Source: Candidatus Edwardsbacteria bacterium (GTDB taxonomy: Bacteria > Edwardsbacteria > AC1 > EtOH8). Taken from it: a stretch of 64,000 nucleotides of DNA. The stretch spans positions 1 to 64,000 of the forward strand of contig JAHJLF010000072.1 in NCBI GenBank assembly GCA_018821925.1, in the 5' to 3' direction. A program made the translations under genes and the position numbers. The notes beneath the pieces are model-generated. The model worked only from the letters and a program-made list of their open reading frames with translations, was not told the origin of the DNA and searched no databases. Positions 41,411 through 52,272 of the stretch are shown here, in pieces; positions within the stretch are counted from its first letter, which is position 1; every line of letters starts with the position of its first letter.

Positions 41411-42187
41411 ATGAGCACGGAAAAAACAAGCTGGCGGTTTCTCAATACCGGCCTGGGCGACGGGGCCTATAACATGGCGCTGGATCAGGCCCTGGTGGAG
41501 TCGGTGGGATCCGGCGCCTCGCTGCCCGTGATCCGGTTCTTCGGGTGGAACCCGCCGGCGGTATCCCTGGGGTACAATCAAAAAATAAAAGACCTGGATA
41601 TCGAAGCCTGCCGCAAGGCCGGCTTTGACATAGTCCGCCGGCCCACCGGGGGCCGGGCGGTGATCCATCAGGACGAATTCACCTACAGCGTCATCGCCCG
41701 GGAGAACGATCCGGTGATCGGCGGGACCATCATGGAGACCTACGGCCGGATCGCCCAGGGCCTTTTGGCGGGCCTGAAAATATTGGGGGTGGCTGCCGAG
41801 ATGGTAAGATCTTCGGCCCCCGATATTCCGGCCACGGCTTCGGCCCTGTGCTTTGCCGCCGCCGGGCGTTACGAGATAACCGCCGGAGGCAAAAAACTCA
41901 TCGGCAGCGCCCAGCGCCGGATGAACGGCGTCATCCTCCAGCAAGGCTCGCTGCTGATGACCTGCGGGCAGGAGCATAAATTTTTCAGCCGGGATCCTAT
42001 GGAGAACCGGGCGGGAACCCTAAGGGAGATCCTGGGGCGGGAGCCGGCTTTCGATGAGGTGGCGGCCGGCATGGAGCAGGGGTTTATGAAGTCTTGGAAT
42101 ATAGAACTGGCGCCTGACTCCCTGACCCAGGACGAGGAAAATACCGCCGGAAGATTAAAACCAGGGCTGATATTTGTCGAAGGATAA
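41411..42187 (+). CDS. lipM: Lipoate/octanoate transferase, LipM type
   Basis: 258 residues. FLNTGLGDGAYNMALDQAL at the start, DIVRRPTGGRAVIHQDEFTY (the RRxTGGxAVxH lipoyl-AMP/octanoyl site), SALCFAAAGRYEITAGGKKL with the candidate catalytic cysteine, and IGSAQRRMNGVILQQGSLLM are all typical of LipM/LplA-like proteins. It would attach octanoate or lipoate to carrier domains such as GcvH, tying in with gcvPB at 29234. Four bases separate it from the preceding stop. A lipoate ligase is the alternative. Confidence 0.85.
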   Translation: MSTEKTSWRFLNTGLGDGAYNMALDQALVESVGSGASLPVIRFFGWNPPAVSLGYNQKIKDLDIEACRKAGFDIVRRPTGGRAVIHQDEFTYSVIARENDPVIGGTIMETYGRIAQGLLAGLKILGVAAEMVRSSAPDIPATASALCFAAAGRYEITAGGKKLIGSAQRRMNGVILQQGSLLMTCGQEHKFFSRDPMENRAGTLREILGREPAFDEVAAGMEQGFMKSWNIELAPDSLTQDEENTAGRLKPGLIFVEG

Positions 42188-42196
42188 AAATTTTTG

Positions 42197-42225
42197 TTGA
42201 CAGATTGGAGATTTTCAATTAGACT
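42197..42225 (+). promoter_or_regulatory. Sigma70-type promoter of the DUF4388 gene
   Basis: TTGACA (42197-42202), 17-base spacer, TAGACT (42220-42225). It lies 60 bases before the start at 42285, which lacks a Shine-Dalgarno. Confidence 0.6.
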
Positions 42226-42284: not shown

Positions 42285-43154
42285 ATGAGTCTACAAGCCA
42301 ATCTGTCAGATTTCCATCTTACTGAAATAATCTATCTGCTGTTCCACTTCCAGAAGACCGGGGTGATCACCGTCAAGGCCGGAAAGAACTACGGCGAGAT
42401 CTACTTCGACAAGGGGCGGGCGGTGCACGCTGCCTATGGCGATATCAAGGGAAGCGAGGCGGTCTACGGCCTGTGCCTGGAATCATCCGGCGAAGTAAAG
42501 TTCGCCCCCGGGGCCAAGGCCTCCGAGGAGACCATCAAGGACGGAGCCGATGCCCTGTTGCAGGAGGGCGACCGCCGGCGCCTGGAGATGGCCGAGATAT
42601 TAAAGGCCCTCCCCCCGTTCAATACAGTATTGGTAAGGACCGCCCAGGCTCCCGAAGAATCGGCTGTCACCATCCGGCGCAGCGACTGGACCATACTGGC
42701 GTTGGTCAACGGCAAGCGCGACATCCGGGCCATCATCGACGAGAGCAAACTGGGGGTGCTGGAGGTGGTCAAGACCATATCCTGGTTCCTGGCCAAGAAC
42801 CTGGTGGTGGATCCCCACGAAGTGGAGCGCATCCTGCAGGCCAAGGTGGATTTTGTCAATCTGATGCTGGAGGAGTTCGGTGTCAAGGGGACCGGGGTGA
42901 AGCCCTGGATGGAGCTGGCCAAAGCCACCCTGGCGGCCGGCGACAAGAACGGCAATATGGTCCGCCATGTGGAATTTACCGATTTTGTGGTCAAGATAAA
43001 AGACGGCGCCAAAACCGACATCAGCAAGGAAGAGGTGGTCCAGGTATGGGACCAGATCGCCGAGGCCATGCACCAGAAGGGCATCAAGGAATACGGGACG
43101 ATGCTGGCCAAGCACAAATACCAGGCTGTCCAGAAGGCGGCCAAGAGCGGCTAA
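42285..43154 (+). CDS. DUF4388 (PATAN-like) protein with shared C-terminal domain
   Basis: 289 residues. Residues 1-95 match the DUF4388 pattern (SLQANLSDFHLTEIIYLLFH, TGVITVKAGKNYGEIYFDKG, AVHAAYGDIKGSEAVYGLC). Residues 130-180 look like a winged helix (LALVNGKRDIRAIIDESKLG). The C-terminal 100 residues (VDFVNLMLEEFGVKG, KDGAKTDISKEEVVQVWDQI) match the end of the next protein. DUF4388 proteins often accompany MglA-type GTPases and two-component systems in polarity or gene control. Cytoplasmic. First gene of a three-gene set. Confidence 0.8.
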   Translation: MSLQANLSDFHLTEIIYLLFHFQKTGVITVKAGKNYGEIYFDKGRAVHAAYGDIKGSEAVYGLCLESSGEVKFAPGAKASEETIKDGADALLQEGDRRRLEMAEILKALPPFNTVLVRTAQAPEESAVTIRRSDWTILALVNGKRDIRAIIDESKLGVLEVVKTISWFLAKNLVVDPHEVERILQAKVDFVNLMLEEFGVKGTGVKPWMELAKATLAAGDKNGNMVRHVEFTDFVVKIKDGAKTDISKEEVVQVWDQIAEAMHQKGIKEYGTMLAKHKYQAVQKAAKSG

Positions 43155-43188
43155 AGGACAAAATATTTAAAGCGTTGATGGAGAGATT

Positions 43189-43884
43189 ATGGCCAAGGAA
43201 CCAGCTGAGCTGATGGACAGTGTCCTCAAGATGGAGGGCGTGAAATGCAGCGCCGCCGTCTCCAAGGAGGACGGGTCCATAATAAAGGCCTCGGCCGGCG
43301 CCCCGGGAAACCTGGGCGAGGTGGTGGCTTTTATCGGTTCGGCCGCGGAGGTGATCACCGCCAACCTGGATCTGGGCAACCTGAATTCGGTGGTGGCCGA
43401 GGGCGAGGGCCATAAGATGCTGATCATGCCGGTCGGGACGGCCTATCTGGGGGTGCAGCTGGACGGGGCCCAGGTTCCCTGGTGGGCCACCCAGATAAAT
43501 CCCATAGATCTGCTCTCCGAGGACAAGATGGCCGAGATCTCCGAGGCCGAGGAACTGCTGAAACAGAAGATCATCCTGCTGAACATGCTGCTGGAGGAAT
43601 TCGGAGCCAAGGGCGAAAAATCCAACGAGTGGCAGGAGATGCTGGACAAGGAGATCAAGAACATAGATCCCCAGGGCCGGTTGGACAAGATGCTGGAGGC
43701 CGGAGCGGGGCTGGTGACCGCCCGCAGCGGGATCAAGACCGATATCTCCAAGAAGGAGGTGGGGGACGCCTTTGAGAAAATGGTCAACCTGACCTGCAAA
43801 AAGGCCATCGCCTCCATCGGTTTCGTGGAGGTCAAACAGAAGTTCCAGGCCGTGATCTCCCGGCTGGCAGCGGAAAAGAGGTAG
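43189..43884 (+). CDS. Roadblock/LC7-like protein with shared C-terminal domain
   Basis: 231 residues. The N-terminal 95 residues (EGVKCSAAVSKEDGSIIKAS, GEVVAFIGSAAEVITANLD, EGHKMLIMPVGTAYLGVQLD) have the Roadblock/LC7 pattern of MglB-like regulators. From about residue 125 the protein matches the DUF4388 neighbour: ILLNMLLEEFGAKG, then a W, then SGIKTDISKKEVGDAFEKM. So the two carry different input modules on one output or dimer domain. It is 34 bases from the preceding gene and 5 from the next. Likely partner: a Ras-like GTPase, not in the window. Confidence 0.72.
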   Translation: MAKEPAELMDSVLKMEGVKCSAAVSKEDGSIIKASAGAPGNLGEVVAFIGSAAEVITANLDLGNLNSVVAEGEGHKMLIMPVGTAYLGVQLDGAQVPWWATQINPIDLLSEDKMAEISEAEELLKQKIILLNMLLEEFGAKGEKSNEWQEMLDKEIKNIDPQGRLDKMLEAGAGLVTARSGIKTDISKKEVGDAFEKMVNLTCKKAIASIGFVEVKQKFQAVISRLAAEKR

Positions 43885-43889
43885 CGGCT

Positions 43890-44609
43890 ATGGAAGAATT
43901 ACTGATACGATTATCCAGCCTGCCCGGCGTGACCGGGAGCTTTTTCGTGGGCGACGACAGCAGCTTCATCTCCCAGTCGCTCTCCAAGTCGTTCGTCCAG
44001 GAGAACGCCAAGCGAGCGGTGATGGTGCTGGCCCAGACCTTTGAAGCCCTCTCCCAGGTGGCCCAGTTCAAGATCAACCGGATGCTGGTCAACACCGGGG
44101 GCAGCCGGCTGTTCATCCGGCGCAGCGACAAGGGATTTTTGAATCTGCTGACCGATATCACCGCCGATGTCAGCGTGATAGATTCGGCCCTGGACGGGGC
44201 TTTAAAAGAAATGCTGATAATGGCCCAGCAGTCGTCCCAGGCTCCGGCCCCGGCCCCGCCGGCCGTGCCCCAAACGGTGGTGGCTGCCACTCCGGCCAAA
44301 ACCGCTCCGACCCCGCAGGTTGCACCTGCCCCGGCGGCCGCACCGTCCCAGATTCCGGCCCCCAAGCCGCCCACCACGGTGGACGCCGCCATCCTGGAGA
44401 AGATACTGGCCCAGGCCGAGGAGGCCCTGGGCGAGCTGGGCGCCACCATCTACGAGAATCAGCTTTCCGACCACAAGCTGAATACCTCCAAGCTGACCAG
44501 GGACTCGGTGATGAAGTTCTGCTACGCCCTGCAGAAGGACGCCTCCATGATCATCGGGCCTTCGGCCGCCAAGCAGATGGCCGATAAAATGATGATGCTG
44601 CTCAAATAA
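43890..44609 (+). CDS. Roadblock-like protein with Pro/Ala linker
   Basis: 239 residues. The N-terminus (residues 1-115: LSSLPGVTGSFFVGDDSSFI, RAVMVLAQTFEALSQVAQFK, RLFIRRSDKGFLNLLTDITA) fits a divergent Roadblock fold. A Pro/Ala-rich linker (about 120-165) leads to a C-terminal helical domain (LEKILAQAEEALGELGATIY, SKLTRDSVMKFCYALQKDAS), possibly a third, more distant version of the domain ending the two previous proteins. Cytoplasmic. Third gene of the set; AGAGGTAG precedes the start. Confidence 0.68.
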   Translation: MEELLIRLSSLPGVTGSFFVGDDSSFISQSLSKSFVQENAKRAVMVLAQTFEALSQVAQFKINRMLVNTGGSRLFIRRSDKGFLNLLTDITADVSVIDSALDGALKEMLIMAQQSSQAPAPAPPAVPQTVVAATPAKTAPTPQVAPAPAAAPSQIPAPKPPTTVDAAILEKILAQAEEALGELGATIYENQLSDHKLNTSKLTRDSVMKFCYALQKDASMIIGPSAAKQMADKMMMLLK

Positions 44610-44666: not shown

Positions 44667-45022
44667 ATGGTAGATTTGAAAATACGGACCAAAGACTTTG
44701 CGTTACAGATAATCCGGCTAACAGCAAACTGCCTAAAAATAATGTTGCCCAGATACTCGGAAAACAAATGTTGAGGTCAGGCACCTCGGTCGGTGCAAAC
44801 TTTCGCGAAGCCACCAGGTCGCGATCCAAAGAGGAATTTATTTCTAAGGCTAATATTTCGCTCCAAGAACTTGAAGAAACGGGGTATTGGCTGGAACTGA
44901 TTTCAGAAAGCTGCCGGTGTGAACTTGACGAAATCGATGCCGCCGTAAAAGAGAACAACGAACTTACTGCGATATTCGTGACGATAATAAAAAACACAAA
45001 GAGGCTTTTCGCTAAAAAATAA
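44667..45022 (+). pseudogene. Four-helix-bundle (23S rRNA IVS-like) protein with frameshift
   Basis: ATG 44667 begins VDLKIRTKDFALQIIRLTAN, and after a one-base loss near 44729 (GCAAACTGCC where GCAAACCTGCC is expected) the other frame continues LPKNNVAQILGKQMLRSGTS, then VGANFREATRSRSKEEFISK. This is the four-helix-bundle family often found in 23S rRNA intervening sequences or as dispersed single genes. With the missing base restored the product is about 118 residues. An internal ATG at 44768 gives an intact 84-residue piece that lacks the first helix. Sequencing error or recent decay cannot be separated by eye. Confidence 0.75.
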
Positions 45023-45149: not shown

Positions 45150-45530
45150 ATGTTCAAACTGCTCCTCTATGATAACGAGTTCCTGTGGTACGTCACCGTT
45201 ACCAACCTGGTGACCATCGCCGGCAGCATATTATTGTGGATAACCTGCGTGCTGTTCGGGCTGATCGCCCGGAAGTACGAGCTGGTGCTGCGCAAGAAGA
45301 CCGACTGGCAGTACATGATCTTCGCTCCCTCCGGGATCCTGGTCTACGCCGTCATCCAGATCATCGCCTTTGCCAGCCAGGTAAAACTTAACGTCATGCA
45401 GTCCTGGATCGCCTACACCTTTTTCCTGCTGTCCGGACTGCTGTCCCTGCTGGGGGCCATGAAGTTCAAGAAGGTGGTAAGCCCGGTCAAAAAGGTTGCC
45501 CCGGCCCCGGCTGCCAAACCGACGGTTTAA
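45150..45530 (+). CDS. Small membrane protein with Pro/Ala tail
   Basis: 126 residues. ATG 45150 is chosen for the perfect GGAGGTGA (45140-45147) just upstream. Three membrane segments: VTNLVTIAGSILLWITCVLF, WQYMIFAPSGILVYAVIQII, and SWIAYTFFLLSGLLSLLGAM. It ends with a basic then Pro/Ala-rich tail (KVVSPVKKVAPAPAAKPTV), similar in taste to the linker of the Roadblock-like protein upstream. No family recognised. It may be a membrane partner of the DUF4388/Roadblock set. Confidence 0.68.
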   Translation: MFKLLLYDNEFLWYVTVTNLVTIAGSILLWITCVLFGLIARKYELVLRKKTDWQYMIFAPSGILVYAVIQIIAFASQVKLNVMQSWIAYTFFLLSGLLSLLGAMKFKKVVSPVKKVAPAPAAKPTV

Positions 45531-45807: not shown

Positions 45808-46146
45808 ATGGAAATATCCATACCGGCCGAACTGCTGTTCGCTGTTGGAGTGGCGCTTTTCTGTATGTCGCTGTTCTTATATGCCAGGATACTAAAGAGG
45901 CTTCTGGCGGTGATCCGAAGGGAATCCGGCATCTGGGTATTGCCCATGGTGGGCGCCGGATTTTTGGCTTTGGGGGCCGTTTTCCACTTCATCCCCCTGG
46001 CCATATATCCGCAATTAGACCCCTCCCGCACCGACCAGCTGATGCAGATCTGCCAGAACCGATCGGCCGAGGCGGCGGGCATATTTTTGGCGGGCCTAAT
46101 ATCCATTCTGGCCGGCTGGATGTACACCCGATGGACCAGCCGGTAG
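45808..46146 (+). CDS. Small membrane protein, three segments
   Basis: 112 residues with membrane segments at about 8-28 (LLFAVGVALFCMSLFLYARI), 42-66 (IWVLPMVGAGFLALGAVFHF) and 90-108 (AAGIFLAGLISILAGWMYTR). A short soluble loop (PQLDPSRTDQLMQICQNR) lies between the last two. No recognised family. TTAGGAG precedes the ATG. It shares size and topology with the gene at 45150, which may make them a pair. Confidence 0.65.
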   Translation: MEISIPAELLFAVGVALFCMSLFLYARILKRLLAVIRRESGIWVLPMVGAGFLALGAVFHFIPLAIYPQLDPSRTDQLMQICQNRSAEAAGIFLAGLISILAGWMYTRWTSR

Positions 46147-49245: not shown

Positions 49246-52200
49246 ATGAAAACTCTAAAGATCTTAGTTGCAGTCACGGTCTGCATGGTAATGGCAGGAG
49301 GTTTGTTGTTTGCCGGCACCACCGGAAAGATCGTCGGAACTGTGACGGACTCCGAGACCAAAGAACCGATTCCCGGCGCAGTAGTGGAGCTGCTGGGGAC
49401 CACCATCGGCGCCAATACCGATATGGACGGGCGGTACTTCATAGTCAACGTTCCGGTGGGAACATTCTCCCTGAGGGCCAGGATGATGGGCTATGAGACG
49501 GTGACCATCACCAATGTCAAATCCATCATGGATTTGACAACCACCATCAACTTTAAAATTAAGCCCACCGTGATATTAAGCGAGGGCATCACCGTGACCG
49601 CCCAACGGCAGATGGTCATCCCCGATGCCACCTCCACCTCCCGGGTGGTTTCAACCAAAGAAATAATGGCCATGCCCAACGCCAGCGCCAATAACGTCAT
49701 CGGCAATACCGCCGGGGTGGTCAGCTCCGGAGGCCAGATGAACGTCCGGGGCGGCCGGTCCGATGAAATGGCGATTTTTGTGGACGGCGTTTCGGTGACC
49801 GATGCCCTGACCGGTGCCATGGGCTCCCAGATCAACACTGCGGCCATCGAGGAAGTGATGGTCATCACCGGCGGCTTCAATGCCGAATACGGCGAGGCCA
49901 TGTCCGGGGTGGTCAACGTGGTCACCAAGGAGGGCGGAGATAAGCTAAGCGTATACGGCCGGTTCACCACCGACATGCACATGCTCTCCGATAGCCGCAA
50001 CAACAACAAGGTGGAACTGAGCCTGGGCGGCCCGGCGCCCTACGCCAAGAACCTGGGCTACTTCCTGTCCGGCGAGGTCGGCAACACCGACGATTACCGC
50101 CCGGTCTTCATGCCCGATAAATATTACGAACACGATCCCACCAAGGATTACTTCTGGGCCGATACCATACAGTACAGCAGGGCCGAGTGGGATCCCGCCG
50201 ACAGCGTGGGGCTGATAGGCTGGAAAGGCGATTGGGCCGATTCCAGCGTTTCGGACTGGGATGCCGAGAAGGCCCGCCGGATTGCCCTGGGCTATCAACG
50301 GGGCTGGAAGGAGTACGACGAGAACTATCTGCCCCACAACGACTATAACAGCTATCGCCTGCAGGGCAAGGTGACCTATAAGATCCCGGCCTGGCAGGCC
50401 AAGATCACCCTGGGAGGCTTTGCCAACCGCGATCAGCGGGGCAGCTACACCGCCTCCTTCAAATACTGGTTGGACAGCTATTATTCATATCTGCAGAAAT
50501 CCTACCAGGGCAATGCCAGCTGGCGCCATCAGGTAAGCAGGAACACCTTCTATAATATAACCGTCAACAAATTCTCCACCAGAACCCAGACCGGGGTGCG
50601 CGACACCACCGTCGAGAAGGACCGCAGCTGGTGGGAGGACTATACGTTTCTGAGCGATGCCGATGCCGACGGCGACAGCATGTACGACGCCTACGAGGGC
50701 CAGGCCTATGCCTATGGCATTGATAACCCCTACGGGGTCTCCGGGATCTTCTATACCTTCGGGCTGGCCCGGCTATGGGAGACAACCAAGGCCGAGTATA
50801 TCGGAGGCAAGATCGATGTCACCTCCCAGGTGAACAGATTCAACCAGATGGTGGGAGGCTTGGAGGTAAAACAGCACCATGTCATCCTGAAAAGCAACTC
50901 GCTTCCCTGGGATCCGGTGCCTTTTAAGGATTATTATGATTTCAAGCCCATCACCGGGGCGGCCTATATTCAGGACAAGCTGGAGTTTCAGGGCTTCATC
51001 GTCAATGCCGGCCTACGGCTGGACCTGCTGATGCCCGAATCCCAGAAGAAGCTGAACAATTTCAACCTGACCGACACCGCTTCCTATATAGATGCCGAGA
51101 CCAAGTATAAACTAAGCCCCCGGCTGGGCATCTCCCACCCGGTGTCCGACCGGACCGTAATGCACATCAGCTACGGGCACTTCTTCCAGCAGCCCCAGCT
51201 GCAGTATCTGTACGAATCCCTAAGCGCCAATATTGCCCGGGGCAATACCGTGATGGGAGACCCCGACCTGGGGGCCCAGCGCACCATTGCCTACGAGATA
51301 GGCTTCAACCAGCAGTTAACCAATGATATGGCCGGAGATATTACCGTCTATTATAAGGACATCTTCGACCTGCTGGGCACCCGGATGTTGCAGGACACCA
51401 TTACCGGGCTGAACTATACCTCGTTCTTGAACACGGAATACGGCAATGTTCGGGGTTTTGAGGCCACCCTCAACAAGCGGGCCTCGGCCAACGGTATCTT
51501 CTCCGGCAAGCTGGCCTACTCCCTGATGCTGGCCAAGGGCACTGCCTCCGATCCCTGGGAAGGCTATCTCAACTATATTTACGGGGGCGGGACCGACCCG
51601 GCCACCGGACTGCCGGTGCCCTTCCCCAAGAGCGACGCCTTTTTGGAATACGACCAGCGCCATACCTTCTCGGTATCCACCAACTTTGACTTCGGCGAAA
51701 AATTCGGACCGGCCATCGCCGGCTTCAAACCGCTGGCCAACCTATCCATCAGCCTGCTGAACAACATCGGCAGCGGCATGCCCTATACCATCGTCAACTC
51801 CAAGGGGGTCCAGATCGGCGGGGTCAACGAGGGCCGGATGCCCTGGACCCTCAACACCGACCTGTTGCTTAGCCGCTCGCTGACGGTGGCCGGGATAAAG
51901 ATGTCCATAGATTTCGAGGTTCTGAATCTTTTAAACCGCAAGAATGTCGCCAACGTCTTTGCCGTAACCGGAAACCCGCTGAACGATGGCAGCATCATCA
52001 CCCTCGGCGATTTTACAACCTCTGCCATCCCCTGCAGCGTTTCATATACGGTGGACGGGGCGGGCGACCCGGTGTATGTGCCCAATCCCTATTACAGCAA
52101 GTGGCGGGATATCAACGGGGACGGGGAAGTAGACCAATACGAGAAGTACGTTTCCTACGTGGCGGCCTGGGACGACTATATCACCGACCCCTTCACCGCC

Positions 52201-52272
52201 AACAGGACGCCCAACACCAGGGCCTACGCCGAACCGCGTCGCAGCCGCCTGGCCCTCAGTTTCAGCTTCTAA
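49246..52272 (+). CDS. TonB-dependent receptor with carboxypeptidase-regulatory domain
   Basis: 1008 residues. Signal peptide about 1-24. Residues 27-105 form a CarboxypepD_reg-like domain (GKIVGTVTDSETKEPIPGAV, NTDMDGRYFIVNVPVGTFSL). A plug domain follows (about 115-225: MNVRGGRSDEMAIFVDGVSV, GGFNAEYGEAMSGVVNVVTK), then the outer-membrane barrel, with the expected final aromatic, SRLALSFSF. Such receptors take up bulky ligands with energy from TonB, or act in outer-membrane assembly. The next two genes encode a secreted T9SS-type protein and a PorV-like protein, so a role in secretion or surface assembly is possible. Confidence 0.93.
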   Translation: MKTLKILVAVTVCMVMAGGLLFAGTTGKIVGTVTDSETKEPIPGAVVELLGTTIGANTDMDGRYFIVNVPVGTFSLRARMMGYETVTITNVKSIMDLTTTINFKIKPTVILSEGITVTAQRQMVIPDATSTSRVVSTKEIMAMPNASANNVIGNTAGVVSSGGQMNVRGGRSDEMAIFVDGVSVTDALTGAMGSQINTAAIEEVMVITGGFNAEYGEAMSGVVNVVTKEGGDKLSVYGRFTTDMHMLSDSRNNNKVELSLGGPAPYAKNLGYFLSGEVGNTDDYRPVFMPDKYYEHDPTKDYFWADTIQYSRAEWDPADSVGLIGWKGDWADSSVSDWDAEKARRIALGYQRGWKEYDENYLPHNDYNSYRLQGKVTYKIPAWQAKITLGGFANRDQRGSYTASFKYWLDSYYSYLQKSYQGNASWRHQVSRNTFYNITVNKFSTRTQTGVRDTTVEKDRSWWEDYTFLSDADADGDSMYDAYEGQAYAYGIDNPYGVSGIFYTFGLARLWETTKAEYIGGKIDVTSQVNRFNQMVGGLEVKQHHVILKSNSLPWDPVPFKDYYDFKPITGAAYIQDKLEFQGFIVNAGLRLDLLMPESQKKLNNFNLTDTASYIDAETKYKLSPRLGISHPVSDRTVMHISYGHFFQQPQLQYLYESLSANIARGNTVMGDPDLGAQRTIAYEIGFNQQLTNDMAGDITVYYKDIFDLLGTRMLQDTITGLNYTSFLNTEYGNVRGFEATLNKRASANGIFSGKLAYSLMLAKGTASDPWEGYLNYIYGGGTDPATGLPVPFPKSDAFLEYDQRHTFSVSTNFDFGEKFGPAIAGFKPLANLSISLLNNIGSGMPYTIVNSKGVQIGGVNEGRMPWTLNTDLLLSRSLTVAGIKMSIDFEVLNLLNRKNVANVFAVTGNPLNDGSIITLGDFTTSAIPCSVSYTVDGAGDPVYVPNPYYSKWRDINGDGEVDQYEKYVSYVAAWDDYITDPFTANRTPNTRAYAEPRRSRLALSFSF

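Follow-up and report, generated by a model that had tools for sequence, protein, structure and literature searches.

Our analysis points to an ancient conserved unit of genes, A-B-C-M1-M2, whose core (a tailed sensor gene followed by the pair M1-M2) recurs in several distant bacterial lineages. Judged from sequence, we give an even chance to the reading that all five gene products (A, B, C, M1, M2) assemble into a single signalling complex tethered to the membrane. Such a membrane-tethered platform is proposed because A and B have a tail in common, the unit is conserved, and a protein with a second kind of tail (here called C-type) is almost always encoded directly before M1-M2, irrespective of the head it carries. 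The window, that is, the whole stretch of 64,000 nucleotides that was analysed, is contig C72 of a genome of 2.44 Mb in 95 contigs. Protein A shows 94% identity to its closest named relative, Candidatus Edwardsbacteria.

Gene layout and promoter

The earlier note had listed three open reading frames (A, B and C) with a promoter of their own and two small membrane proteins behind them. All of these are present in the window, where they are arranged as follows:

42197..42225, + strand: promoter-like site TTGACA-17-TAGACT upstream of A, matching 10 of 12 consensus positions
42285..43154, + strand: gene A, 289 aa; DUF4388 at about 1-101, probable winged helix at about 105-175, A/B-type C-terminal domain at about 175-289
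42807..43151, + strand: A/B-type C-terminal domain in A
43189..43884, + strand: gene B, 231 aa; Roadblock domain and A/B-type C-terminal domain
43531..43881, + strand: A/B-type C-terminal domain in B
43890..44609, + strand: gene C, 239 aa; tentatively Roadblock-like N-terminus, Pro/Ala linker, C-type C-terminal domain
44373..44606, + strand: C-type C-terminal domain in C; three helices, conserved IGPSxAxxM
45150..45530, + strand: M1, 126 aa; 3-4 predicted membrane helices, conserved ARxYExVLRKxTxWQYxxxAPSGIL
45808..46146, + strand: M2, 112 aa; about three predicted membrane helices

The equivalent position in another genus (g4) reads TTGACA-17-TACACT, and the -35 TTGACA, the TAnACT and the spacing of 17 nt are kept across the two genera. 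This supports a real promoter before A, since the spacer and flanks have diverged. Directly upstream of A lies a lipoate-ligase-like gene (window 41411-42187), which is kept in a distant family (L069-L071). The gap between C and M1 amounts to 540 bases in the window and contains the remnant of another gene. At 44667-45001 in this region we find a gene of the 23S rRNA intervening-sequence (S23/IVP) family that is split by a frameshift; intact copies are present in the corresponding region of L072 (2882-3244) and L077 (7504-7893). None of the RNA families searched reached its gathering threshold in the window.

Two types of tail and their heads

A and B were said to end in the same C-terminal region, and this similarity is highly significant. 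Their C-termini share 31% identity over 115 gapless residues (BLASTP E 5e-17), with a z of about 25 against shuffles and a score that was reached by 0 of 500 shuffled sequences; profile-profile comparison yields E-values of 2.7e-23 and 1.2e-21. The A/B-type tail measures roughly 110 residues. The B tail is modelled as a helical pair, then a short helix accompanied by a beta hairpin, and finally a second helical pair with its break at G211; pLDDT is mostly 62-84. For neither this tail nor the C-type tail did searches of Pfam, NCBIfam and PDB sequences give a usable match, and no curated family covers either of them.

Among the 386 genomes searched, the A/B tail profile finds 13, always with exactly two copies (A and B). 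These genomes belong only to the Edwardsbacteria family and to a distant family, f31, for which the nearest rank shared with the window is the domain. In a third lineage (G250) the A tail is weak, with an E-value of about 1e-5 when the set searched is small and 1e-3 among 3495 ORFs, and B is a Roadblock-like protein of 121 residues without the tail. It might be argued that the tail was simply copied once in a lineage-specific duplication, the gene order being loosely kept without any joint function. The narrow distribution with two copies each would fit this, but two families far apart both retain the tail in precisely these two genes, A and B, and the linkage of the C-type tail with M1-M2 held out of sample (see below). 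We give duplication alone a slim chance.

The earlier note further suggested that C might be a diverged third carrier of the A/B domain, which was not borne out. Pairwise comparison of the C-termini is at or near chance (z 2.5 for A-C, no similarity for B-C). When the C tail is compared with the A/B tail profiles, E is 0.05-0.14 as long as sequences are few, 0.011 once 17 C-type sequences are included and 0.02 at a depth of 34, so that the significant profile alignment seen for A and B is lacking for C (0.011-0.02 at best). Since neither the pairwise comparisons nor three generations of profiles reached significance, the idea that C carries the A/B tail was dropped; its tail is of a separate kind, the C-type. 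The fold models of B and C do have similar ends, a pair of helices interrupted at a conserved Gly, but this is no more than suggestive. In the model the C tail forms helices at 166-194, 204-222 and 224-236, and a fold search with the C model returned nothing below E 2. A profile of the last 79 residues of C finds C in every Edwardsbacteria and f31 genome, plus G250. Most Edwardsbacteria genomes hold a second C-type copy adjoining a short Roadblock gene (C50:24165 in the genome of the window). This second pair of short Roadblock and C-type tail (G000:C50, L128 6537-7387) is located downstream of membrane-protein genes, including one for a DUF6754 protein.

The heads are of different kinds. A was described as DUF4388 plus a winged helix, and the first part is clear (PF14332, E 4.5e-16; 59.4 bits against a curated cut-off of 25). 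DUF4388 is a domain that we take to correspond to PATAN. The winged helix is probable yet only weakly supported (AspA winged helix profile, E 0.085). An MshEN-like insertion considered in some DUF4388 relatives was unsupported and appears to be the helical insertion of DUF4388 itself. A family-conserved paralog of A (G000:C90, L067 7171-7881) carries DUF4388 and the following region without the tail domain.

The window copy of B matches Pfam Roadblock at E 0.0045 and 17.1 bits, below the 23-bit cut-off, whereas four of its seven orthologs match, the best at 5.5e-5. A fold model of B (mean pLDDT 63.6), built on an alignment of six rows, shows the Roadblock topology (alpha-beta-beta-alpha-beta-beta-beta), and a search with this model places Asgard Roadblock, Thermus MglB and Ragulator subunits at the top (best E 7e-4). 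By its ortholog matches and its fold, B is a Roadblock protein, as proposed. The alignments used for fold prediction are shallow because they were drawn from the sequences of the window, L006 and L007 only. The head of C has no Pfam match and is tentatively Roadblock-like: hhalign gives E 0.006 against MglB-type profiles, where the null lies at about 0.1-0.4, and most of the N-terminal part is modelled below pLDDT 50.

Taken together, DUF4388 combines with the A/B tail in A and with the C-type tail in the clade of G073; Roadblock combines with the A/B tail in B, and a Roadblock-like head with the C-type tail in C, in G111 and on C50 of the window's genome. Both kinds of head, DUF4388 and Roadblock(-like), are thus seen with either tail, which supports a mix-and-match arrangement, the Roadblock-like/C-type combination being provisional because the Roadblock nature of the C head is tentative. 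The idea of interchangeable sensors on a common C-terminal domain stands for A and B, and its principle is wider than claimed in that there are two tail types; C as a third carrier of that domain is not supported.

Conservation of the core with M1 and M2

M1 and M2, for which no curated family was recognised, are conserved together with C. M1 follows C in all ten genomes of the Edwardsbacteria family, in all three f31 genomes and in G111. The complete order lplA-A-B-C-M1-M2 is kept in 3/3 f31 genomes with nearly no spacing from A through M2, even though identities to the window are as low as 32% for A, 21-23% for B, about 25% for C, 38-44% for M1 and 30% for M2. The row in G111 comprises a C-type protein, M1, M2, ExbD and a TonB-dependent receptor. 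Because the order is kept in f31 and G111, we regard M1 and M2 as part of the unit. A-B-C and M1-M2 are found on separate contigs in G250, whose B lacks the tail; this speaks against a single complex, as does the interrupted gap between C and M1 in the window.

Two further genomes, G073 and G344, have a DUF4388 protein with a C-type tail directly before M1-M2 (hhalign probability 95, E 2.9e-8). Upstream of the core they have a histidine kinase, and downstream of it a single CheY-like receiver protein. As an out-of-sample test, fresh relatives of G073 were searched with M1, using a tail profile built beforehand. This yielded 21 new loci, 19 of them with upstream DNA. All 19 testable loci have a gene with a C-type tail directly upstream of M1 and M2 directly downstream. 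The E-values of these tails (1e-5 to 1e-27) were computed on small per-locus sets; in a pooled ORF set, 17/19 also reach E <= 1e-4. When the heads of ten upstream proteins were scanned, nine matched DUF4388 (some weakly), and the remaining one had no recognised head in the available part. Only C-type tails show this linkage with M1-M2; the A/B type does not. From this gene context, a docking or membrane-coupling role is more likely for the C-type tail than the dimer or effector domain suggested in the earlier note.

Downstream of the unit the window holds a TonB-dependent receptor (49246-52272); counting the relatives (L069, L124), a receptor of this kind is seen there in three distant lineages. 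Its neighbours are ExbB/ExbD/TonB in f31 (G039) and ExbD in G111. One could read the unit as a regulatory accessory of TonB-dependent uptake, which senses or controls the neighbouring receptor or Exb system, given that Edwardsbacteria, f31 and G111 all have the receptor after the unit. We consider this very unlikely: the loci examined in the G073 clade have kinase and receiver neighbours instead, and the entire block could have been retained as synteny without a functional reason.

The proposed platform and its relation to known systems

Returning to the membrane-tethered complex, the fixed gene order suggests that the C-type tail would dock on the M1/M2 membrane pair, while the A/B-type tails may join A and B, as a hetero- or homodimer, into the same assembly. 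Based on what PATAN and Roadblock domains do elsewhere, the DUF4388/PATAN and Roadblock heads could be interchangeable modules for protein interaction, each reading a partner in the cytoplasm. This partner would be an MglA-type GTPase where present, and a response regulator or pilus motor elsewhere; the heads would pass their state to, or from, the membrane. The broader reading has a little less than an even chance in our view: a C-type tail that docks exchangeable PATAN/Roadblock heads on M1-M2 would constitute a widespread, undescribed platform, with or without a small GTPase, to which Edwardsbacteria and relatives would have added another type of tail, present on both heads through duplication.

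A different explanation is that A-B-C regulate an MglA-type GTPase encoded at a distance, either as GAP or co-GAP in the manner of MglB/RomY or as a Ragulator-like scaffold, with M1/M2 only placing them at the membrane. B is indeed a Roadblock protein, and there are known examples of small GTPases under the control of heteromeric Roadblock complexes (PMC9481161). The genome of the window also encodes three MglA paralogs with the TVPGQ motif (contigs C9, C38 and C51), of which the one on C38 has no adjacent Roadblock gene. However, the two on C9 and C51 already have their own, and the A-B-C-M1-M2 unit is without any GTPase gene, also within a few genes. The link to MglA drawn in the earlier note is only indirect and not established: paralogs exist elsewhere in the genome, but none beside A-B-C. 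MglA is present in all four lineages with a Roadblock-type B/C (one copy in f31 and in G111, four in G250). This is weak support, since 147 of the 386 genomes (38%) have MglA and co-occurrence consequently says little; as proof of a link it was rejected. G073 and G344 have no MglA at E <= 1e-8 in spite of having the tail-M1-M2 core, which suggests that the core does not need MglA. We regard regulation of a distant MglA as possible, though rather unlikely.

Two observations concern the MglA genes themselves. The gene on C38 (L064 7281-7871) is situated between glycogen-synthase-like and recG-like genes and is a candidate partner of B/C. C51 (G000:C51, L066 1611-8017) holds a cluster in which an MglA gene lies together with several matches to Roadblock, one to DUF4388 and a DnaA-like ATPase.

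The unit might also be a type IV pilus regulator, with A touching PilB/PilT through its PATAN head and M1/M2 serving as an accessory of the pilus base. PATAN regulators are reported to bind, and act on, the pilus motor PilB1 in cyanobacteria (PMC7690835), and T2SSE-family ATPases occur in 8/8 checked core genomes, with 11 matches in the genome of the window. Nevertheless, these ATPases are nearly universal (13/14 controls) and no pilus gene adjoins the unit in the scanned loci, which makes this option quite unlikely.

The heads of the preferred platform are of known kinds, whereas the tail-M1-M2 core appears to be undescribed in the searchable literature and databases. Nothing combining DUF4388 and Roadblock was found in the open literature searched; among the papers listed for Roadblock and PATAN, the one of relevance is PMC4316618. 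The eukaryotic Ragulator (LAMTOR) likewise combines a membrane anchor with several Roadblock(-like) subunits, but this is an analogy only: there is no homology beyond the Roadblock fold and the anchor is unrelated. Actinobacterial conservons (CvnA-B-C-D) resemble the proposed complex in being membrane-associated with a Roadblock protein, and a histidine kinase lies near the core in G073 and G344. In contrast, the unit lacks the CvnD GTPase and DUF742, Edwardsbacteria have M1/M2 rather than a kinase anchor, and the conservon gene set (histidine kinase, Roadblock, DUF742, GTPase) was not found in the window or in the loci of relatives. The cyanobacterial PATAN-receiver regulators PixE, PixG and LsiR likewise use a PATAN/DUF4388 head as a signalling interaction module, but A has a probable winged helix and a tail in place of a fused receiver domain.

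Finally, the MglB/MglC/RomY regulators of MglA in Myxococcus and Thermus are comparable through the Roadblock fold of B and because PATAN genes are sometimes neighbours of MglA/MglB genes (PMC4316618). The unit differs from them by the missing adjacent GTPase gene, the extra C-terminal domain, the two membrane proteins and the presence of its core in two genomes without MglA, suggesting that such signalling is separable from the GTPase. The swapping of heads and tails offers a natural experiment on how these complexes are assembled. PATAN and Roadblock genes have been noted beside those of MglA-type GTPases, but how their products would be physically connected to the membrane had not been defined; the tail-M1-M2 core provides a concrete candidate for the anchor.
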